NCBI GenBank assembly: GCA_016182365.1 | Contig: JACOXO010000021.1 | Coordinates: 1-32,981 of the forward strand | DNA from: Candidatus Gottesmanbacteria bacterium | Lineage (GTDB): Bacteria > Patescibacteriota > Microgenomatia > JACOXO01 | Direction: 5' to 3' | Length of the DNA stretch: 32,981 bases | Shown: positions 10,187 through 32,150 of the stretch, in pieces | How the letters are laid out: each line of letters begins with the position of its first letter | How positions within the stretch are numbered: position 1 is the first letter of the stretch | Notes under the pieces: model-generated | Told to the model about the DNA's origin: nothing | What the model saw: only the letters and a program-made list of their open reading frames with translations | Databases searched by the model: none | Translations under genes and position numbers: made by a program

Positions 10187-11377
10187 ATGAAAATTTTAAT
10201 GCTTACGCCCTATCTTCCCTACCCTTTATTTTCCGGGGGCCAAACCAGGTCATTTAATCTTATTAAAAATTTAGCTAAAAACCATGAGATAAGTTTGTTT
10301 AGTTTTATAAGAAGCAATGACGAAAAAAAATATATTAAATATTTGCGTCCTCATTGTAAGAAGATCCATGTATTTAAAAGAAGACCAGCCTGGTCTCCGA
10401 TTAATATTGGTCTTGCCGGTTTTACTCTTTATCCCTTTTTAGTAGTTATTTATCTTTCAAGAACACTAAGAAATTTTTTAGCAAATGAAATAGCAACAGA
10501 AAAATATGATCTAATTCATGCAGAAACTTTTTATGTCCTTCCAAACATTCCCCCAACCCAAATTCCCACACTTCTAGTTGAGCAAACCATTGAATATCAG
10601 GTTTACCAGCATTTTGTAGAACAGATGAAAATTCCACTTATCAAATATCCTTTAAGATTAGATGTTAAAAAAGTTAAATTTTGGGAAACATATTATTGGC
10701 GGAAAGTAAACCAAGTGGTTGCCGTGTCTGAGGATGATAGAAACAAAATGAGACAATTAATTCCAAATTTGTCTGTTGAAGTTATACCAAATGGTGTTGA
10801 TCCTAAAATGTTTTCTGGAAATAGCATGGTTAGTTCGGCACAAACTCCAACTGTTTTGTATGTTGGAAATTTCAAATGGCTGCAAAACAGAGAAGCAGTT
10901 GAGATTTTGATCGAAGATATCTGGCCTAAAATTAAAAAAGAAATAGCAAATGCAAAATTGTGGGTTGTTGGTAGAAATACCAGCGCGCTTAATTATTTAA
11001 AGCAGCCAGATATTATATTTGATGAGAGTGTAGATAATATTAAGGAAGCATATAAAAAAGCTGATATGGTTCTGGCTCCAATTAAAGGTCCAGGTGGTAC
11101 TAGGCTTAAGGTACTTGAGGCTATGGCTTCATCTTGCCCTGTAGTTACTACATCAGTAGGCATTGAGGGGATAGAAGCAGATCCTGGGGTTGACGTCTTA
11201 ATTGGAGATACGAATAATGATTTGGCTAAACTAACGGTCAAGCTTTTAAAAGATGCAAATCTCAGGAAAAAAATAGGCAAAGCCGGGTTTTTGGTAGTTG
11301 AAAAAAGGTATAACTGGGAATCAATTACTAAAAAGATAGAAAAAGTTTACCAAAACGTCCAACATGAAAAAAGATAA
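10187..11377 (+). CDS. Glycosyltransferase family 4 / GT1-like
   Basis: MKILMLTPYLPYPLFSGGQTRSFNLIKNLAK, VIPNGVDPKMF, LYVGNFKWLQNREAVEIL, GGTRLKVLEAMASSCPVVTT. Confidence 0.9.
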   Translation: MKILMLTPYLPYPLFSGGQTRSFNLIKNLAKNHEISLFSFIRSNDEKKYIKYLRPHCKKIHVFKRRPAWSPINIGLAGFTLYPFLVVIYLSRTLRNFLANEIATEKYDLIHAETFYVLPNIPPTQIPTLLVEQTIEYQVYQHFVEQMKIPLIKYPLRLDVKKVKFWETYYWRKVNQVVAVSEDDRNKMRQLIPNLSVEVIPNGVDPKMFSGNSMVSSAQTPTVLYVGNFKWLQNREAVEILIEDIWPKIKKEIANAKLWVVGRNTSALNYLKQPDIIFDESVDNIKEAYKKADMVLAPIKGPGGTRLKVLEAMASSCPVVTTSVGIEGIEADPGVDVLIGDTNNDLAKLTVKLLKDANLRKKIGKAGFLVVEKRYNWESITKKIEKVYQNVQHEKR

Positions 11378-12293
11378 ATTTCTTTCAGTTATTATAGTTA
11401 CCCACAATAACCAGCAGATAATTAAAAATACTTTGAATAAGCTCACTATTTCCTTAGATGCTTTAAACAAACCTTGGGAAATTATTGTTGTTGACAACGC
11501 CTCATCTGATAAAACAATAGAGGTTGTAAAAGAAAATTCCCGACGTTACAGTCGGGATCCCGACCCAAAAGCGTCGGGAAAAAAATTAACTCTTATTCAA
11601 AGTAACCAAAATAGAGGGTATGCTTGGGCAAACAATAGAGGAATAGAAAAGTCACAAGGAAAATACATTCTTCTTTTAAATTCTGATGTTGTTCTTAATG
11701 AAGATTCATTAAAAAAAACTATAGATTTTTTAGATAAGGATCCTAATGTTGGTGTTGTAACTTGTAAAATTTTATTACAAAACGGCAAAATTGATCCTGC
11801 ATGTCATAGAGGATTTCCCACTCCATGGGTGTCCTTAACTTATATGATTGGGCTTGAGAAGTTATTTCCTAATATCAGATTATTCTCCGGCTATCACATG
11901 TGGTATAAGGATATAAATAAAACTCACGAAATTGACAGCTGCTCCGGAGCTTTTTATCTTTTCAGGAGGGAAATTATTGAAAAAGTAGGATTATTGGATG
12001 AGAAATTTTTTATGTATGGAGAAGATCTGGATTTTTCCTACAGAATTAAAAATCACGGTTATAAAATCATTTATTATCCATACTGCTTTGCAGTACATCT
12101 TAAATACCAAAGCGGGTTAAAAAGTACTGACCGCGAAACTCAAAAAAGAACAATTGAAGCCTTCTACCAAGCCATGATCATCTTCTACCAAAAAAACTAT
12201 TCAAATAAATACCCATTTTTTGTAACGGGATTAATTATATTTATGATTGGTCTAATCAAAAATCTAAAACTTCTTATTAGTAGATTTTGGTGA
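11364..12293 (+). CDS. Glycosyltransferase family 2, carrying an in-frame palindromic-element insertion
   Basis: LSVIIVTHNNQQIIKNTLNKL, EIIVVDNASSDKTIEVV, NRGYAWANNRGI, LLLNSDVVL; inserted RRYSRDPDPKASG between VVKENS and KKLTLIQSNQ. Confidence 0.92.
   Translation: MKKDKFLSVIIVTHNNQQIIKNTLNKLTISLDALNKPWEIIVVDNASSDKTIEVVKENSRRYSRDPDPKASGKKLTLIQSNQNRGYAWANNRGIEKSQGKYILLLNSDVVLNEDSLKKTIDFLDKDPNVGVVTCKILLQNGKIDPACHRGFPTPWVSLTYMIGLEKLFPNIRLFSGYHMWYKDINKTHEIDSCSGAFYLFRREIIEKVGLLDEKFFMYGEDLDFSYRIKNHGYKIIYYPYCFAVHLKYQSGLKSTDRETQKRTIEAFYQAMIIFYQKNYSNKYPFFVTGLIIFMIGLIKNLKLLISRFW
11539..11578 (+). repeat. In-frame coding palindromic element, copy 1 (inside GT2 gene)
   Basis: CCCGACG TTACA GTCGGGATCCCGAC CCAAAAG CGTCGGG; two adjacent hairpins; outer arms extend to TTCCCGACG/CGTCGGGAA. 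Confidence 0.9.
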
Positions 12294-19249: not shown

Positions 19250-21193
19250 ATGAAAGACGGATTTGACAAAATTGACATTAAAAGCACCTCTATGAAGAAA
19301 AAAACAAAAAGTCCCGACGCAAAGGTCGGGATCCCGACCCGAAGGCGTCGGGGAAAAATATCTAAATGGTTAATTCCAGTTTTAATCGTTATTTTTATTG
19401 CTCTTGGTTTTACCGGTTTTCAGGTAAGCTCTGTGTACAGACAAGGCAAAAAAACTCAGGCAAGTGCAGAGTTGGCGATTCAGACGATCAGAGACCAGAA
19501 TATTGATGCCGCAAAAGATGCCCTTATAACTACAAAAGAGGACCTAACCAAAACCAGACAATTGTATGCTGGGCTACTTTTACCTAAATATACTCCTATA
19601 GTCAGAAGTTACTATCTGGATGGAGAGCATTTGATGACTGCAGCAGATGCCGGATTAGACGCAGGTATTATTACAACCGAAGCAATTATTCCTTATGCCG
19701 ATCTTTTGGGTCTTAAGGGTGAGAGCAAATTTGTTTCGGGATCGGCGGATGAACGTATTCAAACAGCTGTTCAGACTCTTGATAAATTGACTCCCAAACT
19801 GGGTGATATAGCCGAGAAAATCAAAATAGTTAACCAAAATTTTGATAAAATCAACCCAAATAGGTATCCGGAAAAAATTGGCAATAGAGAGATTAGACCC
19901 AAACTTCTGGCTGCCAAAACTACCATAAATAATCTAAGTGAACTTTTCTTAAATGCAAGACCCCTTCTAGAGAACTTACCTAGCCTTTTGGGTGAACCTA
20001 CCCCAAAAAGATATCTTATTATATTCCAAAATGATAAAGAGCTTCGTCCCACCGGCGGTTTTATAACTGCCTATGCAATTTTCAAACTGGAAAAGGGAAA
20101 ACCTATTGTAGAAACTGCAGATGATATCTATAAACTTGATGAAAAAAATACGGCAAAAATATCACCTCCGGAGCAGTTTATTAAAAATCTGAAAGTTTTC
20201 AATCTCAATCTTAGAGATAGCAACTTCGATCCAGACTTTAAAGACTCGATGCAGAGATTTGAAGAAATGTATAATAATATTCCCGGAACAACTCCTGTTG
20301 ATGGTGTAATTGCTGTTGACACTCATGTGTTAGTTGAGGCCATGAAGATTTTAGGACCAATTCCTGCATATGGAACCAATTTTACAGTGGATATTGATCC
20401 TAGATGCGATTGTCCTCAGGTTATTTATGAGTTGGAAGATTATGCTGGAAGAAGAGTGGCATATATAAGGGAGGACAGGAAAGATATTATCGGGGTTCTT
20501 TTGTACCAGATTATGCAGAAAGCCTTGGGTGTTTCTCCTTCTCAATATTGGGGCAAGCTTTTCCAGATGGTTTTATCTGAGTTTGAGCAAAAACATATCC
20601 TTGTTTATCTTACTAACACTGACGCTCAGCAAAGTTTAGAGGCATTAAATTTTGCAGGAAGAATGATTGATTCACCTCAAGAAGACTATCTTCATATTAA
20701 TGATGCCAACTTAGGAGGAGCCAAATCCAATCTTTTTGTCAGACAGTCAGTTAAACAGGATTTTGAAAAACAGGGTGACGGGTCAATTGTCAAAACAGTA
20801 ACAATATCGTATAAAAATCCAGAACCTGGTTCCCCTGGTTGTAATCTAGAAGCAGGAGGACTTTGTCTAAATGGTCCAATGAAAAACTGGTTGAGAGTTT
20901 ACGTACCTAAAGGATCAGAACTAATAGATTTCGAAGGTTCTAGCGATGCACCAATTGTTTCGGAAGCTTATAACAGGACATTATTTGAAGGTTTGACAAC
21001 AGTTAATCCTGAAGGAGTTGCTACTGTAACAATTAAGTATAAATTACCTCAATCAGTTAGTGGTGATAAATTTTCAGAATATATCCAAAAACAGCCAGGT
21101 ACAGACAATAATGAATACATAACTCTTGTTAATGGAAATGAAGTTGACATATTTAACCTAACCAAAGATACTATAAAAGAGATTAAATTATAA
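19250..21193 (+). CDS. DUF4012 family membrane protein, with palindromic-element insertion in its cytoplasmic N-terminus
   Basis: Single TM near N-terminus; KRYLIIFQNDKELRPTGGFITAYAIFKLEKGK is characteristic of DUF4012; inserted PDAKVGIPTRRRRG before the TM. Confidence 0.85.
   Translation: MKDGFDKIDIKSTSMKKKTKSPDAKVGIPTRRRRGKISKWLIPVLIVIFIALGFTGFQVSSVYRQGKKTQASAELAIQTIRDQNIDAAKDALITTKEDLTKTRQLYAGLLLPKYTPIVRSYYLDGEHLMTAADAGLDAGIITTEAIIPYADLLGLKGESKFVSGSADERIQTAVQTLDKLTPKLGDIAEKIKIVNQNFDKINPNRYPEKIGNREIRPKLLAAKTTINNLSELFLNARPLLENLPSLLGEPTPKRYLIIFQNDKELRPTGGFITAYAIFKLEKGKPIVETADDIYKLDEKNTAKISPPEQFIKNLKVFNLNLRDSNFDPDFKDSMQRFEEMYNNIPGTTPVDGVIAVDTHVLVEAMKILGPIPAYGTNFTVDIDPRCDCPQVIYELEDYAGRRVAYIREDRKDIIGVLLYQIMQKALGVSPSQYWGKLFQMVLSEFEQKHILVYLTNTDAQQSLEALNFAGRMIDSPQEDYLHINDANLGGAKSNLFVRQSVKQDFEKQGDGSIVKTVTISYKNPEPGSPGCNLEAGGLCLNGPMKNWLRVYVPKGSELIDFEGSSDAPIVSEAYNRTLFEGLTTVNPEGVATVTIKYKLPQSVSGDKFSEYIQKQPGTDNNEYITLVNGNEVDIFNLTKDTIKEIKL
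19313..19352 (+). repeat. In-frame coding palindromic element, copy 2 (inside DUF4012 gene)
   Basis: CCCGACG CAAAG GTCGGGATCCCGAC CCGAAGG CGTCGGG; 34/40 identical to copy 1, differences confined to spacers. Confidence 0.9.
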
Positions 21194-23770: not shown

Positions 23771-25051
23771 ATGGATAAGATTGTCGCTTTAACTAAAAGA
23801 CGGGGATTTGTTTATCCTTCCTCAAGTATCTACGGTGGGTTTGGGGGCTTCTGGGATTTTGGTCCTTTAGGAGTTGAACTTAAAAACCAAATTAAAAAAC
23901 TTTGGTGGGATACGTTTGTCCGCAACAGGTCTGATATGTACGGACTTGATTCCAGTATTATTTTAAATCCTAAAGTATGGGAAGCAAGCGGTCATACAGG
24001 TCCTGGTTTTGCAGATCCACTCCGGGAATGTAAAAAATGTCATCACAGGTTTAGAGAAGAAGATCTTAAGAAAGATTCCTGTCCTGATTGTGGTGGCGAT
24101 CTTATGTCTCCTCGTTCATTTAATATTCTGGTTAAAACTTTTATAGGATCTGTTGAAGATACTAAAGCAACAGCCTATTTAAGAGGAGAAACAGCTCAGG
24201 GTATTTTTATTAATTTTAAAAACATTTTTGATGCCTTTCATCCAAAACTTCCATTTGGTATAGCCCAGATTGGTAAAGCATTTAGAAACGAGATAACACC
24301 TGGTAACTTTTTCTTTAGAAGCCGGGAGTTTGAACAAATGGAAATTGAATATTTTGTCGATCCCACTTTAGCCACTTCGGAATTTGAGAAATGGGTTAAA
24401 CAAGTTTTTGATTGGTTTATATTATTAGGTTTAAAAAAAGAAAATCTAAGATTTTTCAAACATCCTCAGGAAAAATTAGCGCATTACTCAAAGGCTACTA
24501 CGGATATTGAGTATAAATTTCCTTTTGGCTGGAGTGAGTTTCAGGGAACTGCAAATAGAGGAGATTTTGATTTAATGCAACACAGCAAATATTCAGGTAA
24601 AGAATTAATGTATCAATTTCAGGATGGAAAAAAGATTTTTCCTTATGTAATTGAACCATCATTTGGAGTCGAGAGATTAATGTTAGCTTTACTTGTTGAT
24701 GCTTATTATGAAGACACCAGTAATAAAAGGGTAGTTCTTAAACTTAGCCCTAAAGTATCACCATATCAAGTAGCCGTATTTCCTCTTCTTGCAAATAAGC
24801 CGGAGTTGGTTGATAAAGCACAGGTCGTATTTAATAATTTAAGAAAAAAATACAGAGTAATATTTGATGGCAGAGGCAATATTGGCAAGAGATATTTTGC
24901 TCAGGATGAGATTGGTACACCATATTGCGTTACAGTTGATTTTGATACACTGGAGGATAATTCGGTTACTGTAAGAGATAGAGACACAACTAAACAGGAC
25001 AGGGTATCTATTACAAAACTTGACGAATATCTCAATAATAAGTTATTCTAA
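23771..25051 (+). CDS. glyQS: Glycyl-tRNA synthetase, dimeric class II type
   Basis: MDKIVALTKRRGFVYPSSSIYGGFGGFWDFGPLGVELKNQIKKLWW, CxxC/CxxC zinc site, LRGETAQGIFINFKN, FRNEITPGNFFFRSREFEQMEIEYF; ATG at 23771. Confidence 0.96.
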   Translation: MDKIVALTKRRGFVYPSSSIYGGFGGFWDFGPLGVELKNQIKKLWWDTFVRNRSDMYGLDSSIILNPKVWEASGHTGPGFADPLRECKKCHHRFREEDLKKDSCPDCGGDLMSPRSFNILVKTFIGSVEDTKATAYLRGETAQGIFINFKNIFDAFHPKLPFGIAQIGKAFRNEITPGNFFFRSREFEQMEIEYFVDPTLATSEFEKWVKQVFDWFILLGLKKENLRFFKHPQEKLAHYSKATTDIEYKFPFGWSEFQGTANRGDFDLMQHSKYSGKELMYQFQDGKKIFPYVIEPSFGVERLMLALLVDAYYEDTSNKRVVLKLSPKVSPYQVAVFPLLANKPELVDKAQVVFNNLRKKYRVIFDGRGNIGKRYFAQDEIGTPYCVTVDFDTLEDNSVTVRDRDTTKQDRVSITKLDEYLNNKLF

Positions 25052-29227: not shown

Positions 29228-30904
29228 ATGTGGCGTTCTCGTCTAATATTCACTTTTTTCCTACTCTGGTTTTTTTTAGTTATTGGAAAACTTTTCTACT
29301 GGCAGGTTCTTTCATATAATAAATTAGCTGCCGCTGCCGATAAACAACATTTCATTAGTTTCACCTTACCTGCATTGCGCGGCGATATTTTGGCTTCAGA
29401 TGGTTCGATTTTAGTCACTAACCAGCCAGCGTATTTAGTTTGGGCTGAACCGCCAAAAGTAGAAGGTAAAAAAAGACTAACCGATGTTCTATCCAATGTC
29501 CTTAAAATGCCTCAAGCATCGGTTTCTGCGATTTTAGATACCTCTAATGCTTTGTGGGTTCCGTTGGCAAGGCGTATTGATGAAGACACTGTAAATACAC
29601 TTAAGCAGCAAAACCTGGCAGGTATAGGTTTTGAGAAAATGGGCAAAAGATATTATCCGGAAGCCTCAATGAGCGCCCAAATATTGGGTTTTGTCGCTTC
29701 AGATAATATTGGAGATGACAAAGGATACTTTGGAATAGAAGGATCATATGATAAAGAACTAAGAGGTAGAGATGGTTTTTTGCGGCAGGAGAAAGACCCT
29801 TATGGGTTTCCAATCGTTATTGGAGAGGGAGAAAGAATTGATCCTGAAAATGGTAGAAATGTGGTTTTGCACATTGATAAAATTGTCCAAAATTCTATTG
29901 AAACCAAGCTTAAAAAAGGGATTGAAAAATTTGGCGCTAAAGCGGGAAGCATTATAGTTATGGAGCCAGCAACTGGTGCTATTCTGGGAATGGCTTCATA
30001 TCCATCATACGATCAGTCTTCATTTTCAGAATATGATAAAGAGTTGTATAAAAACCCTACCGTTGCTACAAGTTATGAGCCGGGATCAACATTTAAATCC
30101 ATTGTAATGGCTTCAGCTATATCAGAAAAAGTAGTAACACCGCAAACAGAAACAGACGAGGAAGGTCCAGTTAAAATATCAGGTTATGAAATCCGCACTT
30201 GGGATAATAAATACAGAGGTAGAATTAATATGACTGAAATTCTACAGCATTCATCAAATGTTGGTATGGTATTTGTGGGAGAAAAATTAGGAAAAGATAA
30301 ATTTTTAGATTATCTTGAAAAGTTCGGATTTGGGCAATCAACCGGAATTGATCTTTCCGATGAACAAGTACCTAATTTGAGACCAGTTAACCAGTGGAGA
30401 GAAATTGATCTAGCGACAGCAACATTTGGTCAAGGCATTGCAGTCACGCCAATACAAATGATCAGAGCTGTTGCTGTACTTGCAAATGGAGGGAAACTTG
30501 TTGAACCACATATTGTATCCAAAATTATTGATAGTTTTGGCAATGAGACAGAGATCAAGCCCAAAGTAATTAGACAGGTAATTACTCCACATGGTTCTAA
30601 GGTAATTACAGAAATGTTAGTTCAAAGTGTTATTGGTGGGGAGGCGCATTATAAAATACCTAAGGGTTATAGAATTGCTGGTAAAACAGGAACCGCACAA
30701 ATTCCGGTTGCAGGTCACTACGATGAACAAAAAACAATAGCGTCTTTTGTAGGATATGCTCCAGCAGATAATCCTAAGTTTGTAATGTTGGTTACTATAA
30801 CCGAGCCGACCAGCTCTCCTTGGGGATCTGAAACAGCCGCCCCCCTTTTTATGGATATAACAAGCGATTTGCTTGCCTATTACAAAATATTCCCAAGCCC
30901 TTAA
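29228..30904 (+). CDS. ftsI: Class B penicillin-binding protein (peptidoglycan transpeptidase FtsI)
   Basis: N-terminal TM, ATSYEPGSTFKS (SxxK), SSN (HSSNVGMVF), KTGTAQ. Confidence 0.95.
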   Translation: MWRSRLIFTFFLLWFFLVIGKLFYWQVLSYNKLAAAADKQHFISFTLPALRGDILASDGSILVTNQPAYLVWAEPPKVEGKKRLTDVLSNVLKMPQASVSAILDTSNALWVPLARRIDEDTVNTLKQQNLAGIGFEKMGKRYYPEASMSAQILGFVASDNIGDDKGYFGIEGSYDKELRGRDGFLRQEKDPYGFPIVIGEGERIDPENGRNVVLHIDKIVQNSIETKLKKGIEKFGAKAGSIIVMEPATGAILGMASYPSYDQSSFSEYDKELYKNPTVATSYEPGSTFKSIVMASAISEKVVTPQTETDEEGPVKISGYEIRTWDNKYRGRINMTEILQHSSNVGMVFVGEKLGKDKFLDYLEKFGFGQSTGIDLSDEQVPNLRPVNQWREIDLATATFGQGIAVTPIQMIRAVAVLANGGKLVEPHIVSKIIDSFGNETEIKPKVIRQVITPHGSKVITEMLVQSVIGGEAHYKIPKGYRIAGKTGTAQIPVAGHYDEQKTIASFVGYAPADNPKFVMLVTITEPTSSPWGSETAAPLFMDITSDLLAYYKIFPSP

Positions 30905-30935
30905 CGTGATAGATATAAAATGGTATAATTCACCA

Positions 30936-32150
30936 ATGGAGCATATTAAAGCTCTATATCACTACATAGTTGCAGTAATTGCTGTTTTAGTTTACGGCTA
31001 TCCGGCAAAAGACTTAACAGTAATTGCCGTCACGGGTACTTCAGGTAAAACGACAACTTCCCATCTTATTTACTCAATCCTCAAAAAATCAGGCAGGAAA
31101 GCTGCCTTAATATCGTCAGTTGAGGCTATAATTGGAGGAAAAGTTTCCGATACTGGTTTTCATGTTACTACACCAAGCCCCTTTGCCTTGCAAAAATTCT
31201 TAAAAACAGCGGTTTCTAAAGGAGATAAATATGTTGTTGTTGAGGCTAGTTCTCATGGAATTGCCCAATATAGAATGCTGGGAACCAATGTAAAAATTGC
31301 GGTTTTGACTAATATTGCCCATGAGCACTTAGATTGGCATGGGACTTTTGAAGCTTATTCCCAGGCTAAGCTTTCCCTCATTCAAAAAGCTCAAGTATCA
31401 GTTGTCAATAAAGATGACGAGTCATACAAGTTAGTTGAAAAATTAGGTAACAAAAAAGCAGTGATATTAACATATAGCTTAAAAGATCCTGACGCTGATT
31501 TTATACCTGAAAATACAGTATCCGAAGTCACTTTACCAGGTGAATATAACAGGCAGAATGCAATTGCAGCAAGCAGCGTATGTCAACTTTTAGGAGTAGA
31601 ACTTGAAGATATTAAAAAAGCTTTTAATAGCTTTAATGGAGTACAGGGCAGATTTGAGGAAATAAAAAATAAAAGAGGATTTAGAATTATTATTGATTTT
31701 GCTCATAAACCCAATGCTTTTGAAGCTTTATTATCAACACTTAAAAAAAATGCCGACGTTTCAGTCGGCACCCCGACCCAAAGGCGTCGGGGGAGATTAA
31801 TTATTATGTTTGGATCTGCAGGTGAACGGGATAAAGGTAAAAGATCAATGATGGGCAAAATTGCTGCAAAATACGCAGATATTTGTGTACTGACCGCAGA
31901 AGATCCCAGAAGCGAAGATGTTAACAGGATTATAAATGAGATATCCCAAGGTACAAAAGGTAGTGAAGCTCAGGTTATAAGAATTGCAGACCGGGCCTTA
32001 GCAATAAATACAGTAATAAATAAACTTGCCAAAAAAGGTGATATAGTTGCTTTTTTGGGTAAGGGTCATGAAAAATCAATGTGTTTCGGTTCTAAAGAAT
32101 ATCCTTGGAGCGAACATGAACAAATTAATAAAGCATTGGCAAAGAGATAA
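30936..32150 (+). CDS. murE: Mur ligase, MurE-like (UDP-MurNAc-tripeptide synthetase), short N-terminus, carrying a palindromic-element insertion
   Basis: VIAVTGTSGKTTTSHLIY, VVEASSHGIAQYR, TNIAHEHLDWHGTFEAYSQAK, GVQGRFEEI, DFAHKPNAFEALL, AEDPRSEDVNRI; ATG at 30936; inserted ADVSVGTPTQRRRG. Confidence 0.9.
   Translation: MEHIKALYHYIVAVIAVLVYGYPAKDLTVIAVTGTSGKTTTSHLIYSILKKSGRKAALISSVEAIIGGKVSDTGFHVTTPSPFALQKFLKTAVSKGDKYVVVEASSHGIAQYRMLGTNVKIAVLTNIAHEHLDWHGTFEAYSQAKLSLIQKAQVSVVNKDDESYKLVEKLGNKKAVILTYSLKDPDADFIPENTVSEVTLPGEYNRQNAIAASSVCQLLGVELEDIKKAFNSFNGVQGRFEEIKNKRGFRIIIDFAHKPNAFEALLSTLKKNADVSVGTPTQRRRGRLIIMFGSAGERDKGKRSMMGKIAAKYADICVLTAEDPRSEDVNRIINEISQGTKGSEAQVIRIADRALAINTVINKLAKKGDIVAFLGKGHEKSMCFGSKEYPWSEHEQINKALAKR
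31752..31791 (+). repeat. In-frame coding palindromic element, copy 3 (inside murE)
   Basis: GCCGACG TTTCA GTCGGCACCCCGAC CCAAAGG CGTCGGG; 35/40 identical to copy 1; first stem changed to GCCGAC/GTCGGC with pairing preserved. Confidence 0.9.

Follow-up and report, generated by a model that had tools for sequence, protein, structure and literature searches.

A dispersed 42-nt inverted dimer of bulged hairpins, carried in frame by murE and other genes of a Candidatus Gottesmanbacteria bacterium

The murE gene of a Candidatus Gottesmanbacteria bacterium carries a 42-nt (14-codon) element in which a bulged hairpin is present twice, as an inverted dimer, and among the copies of this element it is the fold, not the encoded peptide, that is conserved. 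The DNA analysed here, hereafter the window, is a stretch of 32,981 nt representing one of the 42 contigs of a 1.04-Mb genome, and it holds three copies. The hairpin unit can be written as TCCCGAC-G-X(Y)NNN(Y')X'-GTCGGGA, in which a single unpaired G is conserved. The second hairpin, read on the opposite strand, is the hairpin-1 unit plus one extra apical pair; in other words, hairpin 2 is an inverted hairpin 1, and the element is therefore an inverted dimer. The features of the window are the following.

11364..12293, + strand: ORF of a family 2 glycosyltransferase, carrying copy 1
11538..11579, + strand: element copy 1, read as SRRYSRDPDPKASG (frame 0)
19250..21193, + strand: ORF of a DUF4012 protein, carrying copy 2 in its N-terminal tail, before a likely membrane segment
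19312..19353, + strand: element copy 2, read as PDAKVGIPTRRRR (frame 1)
30873..32150, + strand: murE ORF (TIGR01085 murE), carrying copy 3
31751..31792, + strand: element copy 3 (the murE copy), two hairpins forming an inverted dimer of 42 nt, or 14 in-frame codons
31751..31770, + strand: hairpin 1 of the murE copy, TGCCGAC-GTTTCA-GTCGGCA, with unpaired G 31758, apical pair T31759-A31763 and compensated G-C pair 31752-31769
31771..31792, + strand: hairpin 2 of the murE copy, CCCCGAC-CCAAAGGC-GTCGGGG, the inverted unit, with unpaired C 31785, apical pairs 31778-31784 and 31779-31783, and a C-G foot pair (31771-31792) that is T-A in most copies

The murE copy (window 31751-31792, TGCCGACGTTTCAGTCGGCACCCCGACCCAAAGGCGTCGGGG) is parsed as T GCCGAC GTTTCA GTCGGC A followed by C CCCGAC CCAAAGGC GTCGGG G. 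The compensatory stem change that the first-pass annotation had described in this copy is real: the arms are GCCGAC/GTCGGC in place of the CCCGAC/GTCGGG of copies 1 and 2, and pairing is kept. A second two-sided change, in which the foot pair of hairpin 2 went from T-A to C-G, had been missed. The spacers, given as 5 and 7 nt, measure 6 nt in hairpin 1 and 8 nt in hairpin 2, and the assignment of most other differences to these spacers has to be qualified, as part of the spacer is itself paired and covarying. The 42-nt murE copy folds better than 200 of 200 shuffled sequences (z of -5.1 as DNA and -5.5 as RNA). A 20-mer hairpin pattern allowing up to three mismatches has six matches in the window, where 1.28 would be expected; its three perfect matches coincide with the three copies. 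A DNA uptake sequence was considered and rejected, GTCGGG not being scattered singly: 10 of its 12 window matches lie within the three elements.

In the whole genome, covered by searches and targeted stretches, perfect-arm hairpins of the form CCGAC-N3..14-GTCGG number 43, against three for the reversed control, and the exact two-hairpin spacing is found in eight copies. A search with the inner arms only (GTCGGGATCCCGAC, up to two mismatches) retrieved 15 junctions, at nearly all of which the outer arms, lying outside the query, are paired, bar isolated positions. A sequence-only model, trained with 11 copies and giving no credit for pairing, located 16 element sites in the 1.04-Mb genome, nearly all hairpins of which pair; the training copies had been gathered partly by their arms, which biases the stem core, while the patterns left the loop letters free. 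Searches at the level of genus, family and order returned matches from the element's own genome only, genomes of this class ranging from 0.5 to 1.7 Mb. The exact consensus had no match among GTDB species genomes, and no copy was found in the viral contigs searched. A loose double pattern gave 11 matches in GTDB genomes, mostly G+C-rich ones; loci outside this genome, all of them pattern-selected, reached at most 15.3 bits with the sequence-only model, and single hairpins across the class are mostly at control level.

Other hairpins were encountered in the course of these searches. Bulge-free CCCGACGTTACGTCGGG / CCCGACGTAACGTCGGG hairpins occur within longer repeats in two genomes of the class (L042:45-165 in G000:C15 and L057:1480-1580 in G172). 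These longer repeats, GAGCG...AGTCGAAGGATC and TTGCGAGG...GACGTGGCAATC, have hairpin modules nested within them. In addition, CCGACTAAGTCGG recurs in tRNA-gene-like sequences (L031:1485 and 1851 in G000:C33, and in G134 and G162), which are unrelated yet counted by the loose pattern.

The first-pass annotation had proposed covariation across genomic copies as the check on a conserved structure, and frequent stem-breaking substitutions as the observation that would speak against it. In substance this check was run and passed. Specifically, the 13 distinct hairpin-1 units form standard pairs in 104 of 104 cells, against a mean of 88.2% in shuffled alignments (none of 500 as high), and the covariation score is 0.378 compared with 0.123 in shuffles (0/500), with two-sided changes at three pairs. 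Sliding the register by one to three columns lowers pairing to 50% or less. For hairpin 2, with seven distinct units, the signal is weaker (93.7% paired; score 0.185 versus 0.082; 3/500). Over the 34 element hairpins pair 2 is C-G in 25, G-C in four, T-A in three and broken in two, and the stem core CCGAC/GTCGG is almost invariant, so that the stem covariation rests on three pairs. The shuffles ignore the relatedness of the copies, a point addressed by the differing pair combinations and by the changes counted along a minimum spanning tree connecting the units: six two-sided and two one-sided stem changes, the latter both wobbles, alongside nine loop changes.

The best case of covariation lies on the loop side of the unit. 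The unpaired G is kept in 32 of 32 standard units, and the apical pair X-X' just inside it is C-G in 18, T-A in 10 and A-T in four, thus paired in all 32. Counting distinct units only, 20 of 20 are paired, against 9.2 expected by shuffling and 0 to 7 of 20 in neighbouring registers; this count omits units with long nested loops as well as bulge-free CCGACGTAACGTCGG single hairpins, the latter unmatched by the sequence model. RNAalifold, run on the units, misses the apical pair beside the bulge, and this pair consequently rests on counts, not on the folding program.

Matched changes of this kind might also come from the mutation process itself. In template switching at an imperfect palindrome, one arm serves as template for the other and both partners are altered at once; such events are expected at near-perfect palindromes, which these elements are, and some single hairpins (CCGACGTAACGTCGG) are indeed perfect and bulge-free. 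Arm copying, however, should also erase the off-centre unpaired G, which all 32 standard units retain, and the two-sided changes fall at three separate pairs in differing combinations. We consider this origin of the covariation unlikely.

The first-pass annotation had left open whether a fold or a symmetric protein-recognition site was at stake. The fold is upheld; a symmetric duplex site is less well supported, because the unpaired G is off-centre and invariant and the pair inside it takes three Watson-Crick combinations. A duplex DNA binding site, for a nucleoid protein or gyrase as proposed for BIMEs, with the symmetry serving a protein dimer, would account for palindromic symmetry at scattered sites and for the fixed spacing of the two hairpins in standard copies. 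Such a site would nevertheless fix the bases and not permit C-G, G-C and T-A in step, and an off-centre unpaired G or an apical pair closing a short loop matters only in a folded strand, making a role of this kind improbable.

Ten of the 16 copies lie inside ORFs with recognised (Pfam) domains, in at least three frames and in both orientations. The host genes encode a glycosyltransferase, a DUF4012 protein, MurE, a Wzy ligase, a transglycosylase/transpeptidase (PBP1A-like), a phosphoribosyltransferase, SecA, a TrpR-like protein, a beta-lactamase-like protein and an integrase-like protein. The element forms an insertion relative to MurE and SecA relatives, the MurE comparison being made at about 50% identity. 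In particular, the insert is absent from all 29 class-level MurE orthologues (47-51% identical) and from solved MurE proteins, and SecA has an insertion relative to solved SecA at the position of its element copy. The net gain in MurE is 11 residues versus most orthologues, though the element encodes 14; among the orthologues, this loop differs in length by up to three residues. In an AlphaFold2 model of MurE (mean pLDDT 89.6) the insert is predicted as a loop (pLDDT about 53) that links a helix to a strand. This MurE (window 30873-32150) is without the usual N-terminal substrate domain, and its class relatives match over a similarly shortened length.

The use of several frames and orientations also bears on the encoded peptide. 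As the first-pass annotation had argued from the stem change, peptide selection alone is insufficient to explain the copies, which are read in differing frames and orientations. Several copies do share the frame PDxxVGxPTxRRRR, as a small inserted domain under selection would; on the other hand, recognisable genes use three frames or more as well as both orientations, and intergenic copies have the same fold. Selection for the encoded peptide was accordingly rejected as extremely improbable. Standard copies have four to six of six frames open, compared with a mean of 2.9 for 42-mers of the window and 4.2 for shuffled elements, the latter value indicating that base composition explains much of the openness. 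ORFs cover 94% of the window, and the share of genic copies (10 of 16) is below what this coverage predicts, which implies some selection against genic copies; this selection is far less than for typical extragenic repeats.

A function at the RNA level, with the transcribed hairpins serving as stability elements, attenuators or terminators, would draw on their strong RNA folding and on the T runs that follow two copies outside recognised genes (C20:23773 and C32:6817). Against it, the coding copies of the window have no sense-strand T runs after them, both orientations are present within genes, one of the stem departures is an A.C on the sense strand of the gene (C19:36355), and a terminator within secA or murE would be harmful; we regard such a function as having little likelihood. 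The curated RNA models of Rfam gave no match in the window.

AG/TCCC, the slash marking the element end (GGGA/CT on the other strand), is found at 11 of 32 ends against 1.8 expected, an enrichment that fits a preferred junction, and AG/AAG is the enriched foot flank of the 16 elements. No consistent target-site duplication was found in the element flanks. Several copies harbour further palindromes, located either inside a loop or at the hairpin junction (C38:16427, C32:6817 and C20:23773), and some sites, with nested or unusual loops, fit the standard unit poorly. In C38:16427-16485 (G000; L033:1529-1585) the loop of one unit contains a second, complete unit, and the resulting element of 57 nt is in frame in a beta-lactamase-like protein. 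In C32:6817-6884 (G000; L029:1522-1582) the junction between the two hairpins is occupied by a different palindrome, CCTGCCTGCCGGCGAGGCAGG, which looks like an insertion.

The description of these sequences as REP-like or RPE-like holds as an analogy, while the tags that define the REP families were tested for and are absent. RPE-1 and other RPEs are palindromes that lie in frame within conserved genes, as well as in intergenic DNA, in Rickettsia and also Wolbachia (PMC2229807, PMC3733652). The likeness lies in dispersed palindromes, both intergenic and in-frame within conserved genes, that are tolerated as extra loops (PMC2229807, PMC3733652), and the element is indeed a dispersed in-frame palindrome in conserved genes, absent from orthologues. 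The original Rickettsia RPEs, however, are 105-146 bp long (PMC2229807), a range that the 42-nt standard copy does not reach; the element is built as a dimer from short bulged hairpins, and its small host genome is unrelated. GTAG and CGTC REPs inside genes are known from several phyla (PMC2229807, PMC3733652). The CGTC-tagged REPs include RPE-4, RPE-6 and dRS3; dimers are common among them, they are found in genes, and no dedicated transposase is known (PMC3733652). The element shares with them small palindromes, dimers and intragenic copies, but its stem sequence and loop architecture differ and it lacks CGTC beside the stem; no unpaired CGTC (or TGTC/CCTC, as defined in PMC3733652) was found at one end in the element flanks.

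With REPINs or BIMEs and their RAYT (TnpA-REP) enzymes the element has in common an inverted dimer of short hairpins, two units in inverted orientation as in a REPIN, a conserved stem bulge, a CT-enriched foot and a non-autonomous character. It differs in its low copy number (16), its mostly intragenic location and the lack of a GTAG tag, none being shared at the hairpin foot in the flanks of the 16 elements. A hairpin with an unpaired base is also seen at the ends of IS200/IS605 elements, where this base is a likely single-strand recognition feature; the element, by contrast, consists of short hairpins only, with no transposase between two ends. Y1/HUH enzymes recognise both REP and IS200/IS605 hairpins. 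In E. coli, TnpA-REP has folded single-stranded REPs as its substrate; it depends on the bulge and cuts at a CT next to the hairpin (PMC8266576). By analogy, the conserved bulge and CT feet of the element would be similar to a TnpA-REP substrate.

The genome has a single Y1/RAYT-like gene, with a weak match to REP transposases (40 bits versus a cut-off of 80).

G000:C3, about 24112-24786 (L096:1613-2287), - strand: Y1/RAYT-like transposase, 224 aa, with direct CCACCTTAGAGGTGGAACAGCCCCGCCACC copies on both sides

This gene is flanked by a repeat different from the element, CCACCTTAGAGGTGGAACAGCCCCGCCACC, of which the genome has nine copies, five of them on contig C3, and no copy of the 42-nt element was found near it. 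The genome's RAYT is thus not supported as direct partner, the gene carrying its own repeat. The assembly is about 92% complete, and a mobiliser gene may consequently be absent from it.

It is probable that the element is a small non-autonomous mobile palindrome that spreads as a folded single strand with the help of an enzyme in trans. A transposase or similar enzyme would recognise the folded strand, and only the copies able to fold would be good parents, which would leave compensated stem changes behind. The fold is kept in copies otherwise unalike (in genes, frames, strands and intergenic sites), as expected if the parents had to fold in order to move. Copies landing in genes might survive because their usual length is divisible by three and the majority of their six frames are open, adding some 14 residues to surface loops and tails. 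A narrower and more tentative possibility, which we hold as doubtful, is that of a lineage-specific ssDNA hairpin element adapted to genes and moved in trans by a putative HUH-type enzyme reading the bulged-G hairpin. Adapted to genes refers here to the frame-neutral 42-nt length and the scarcity of stops in both orientations; the host would be a small-genome candidate-phylum bacterium. The literature searched contained no report of coding palindromes in candidate-phylum bacteria, a result that speaks only weakly for their absence.

Few bacteria are known to carry protein-coding palindromes. To the question of their mobility the element brings covariation, a conserved bulge and a preferred junction, and the clarity of the fold covariation together with these two features makes the idea of the folded strand as substrate directly testable. 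Moreover, essential genes of a streamlined genome, such as secA and murE, accept new 14-residue loops from this element.
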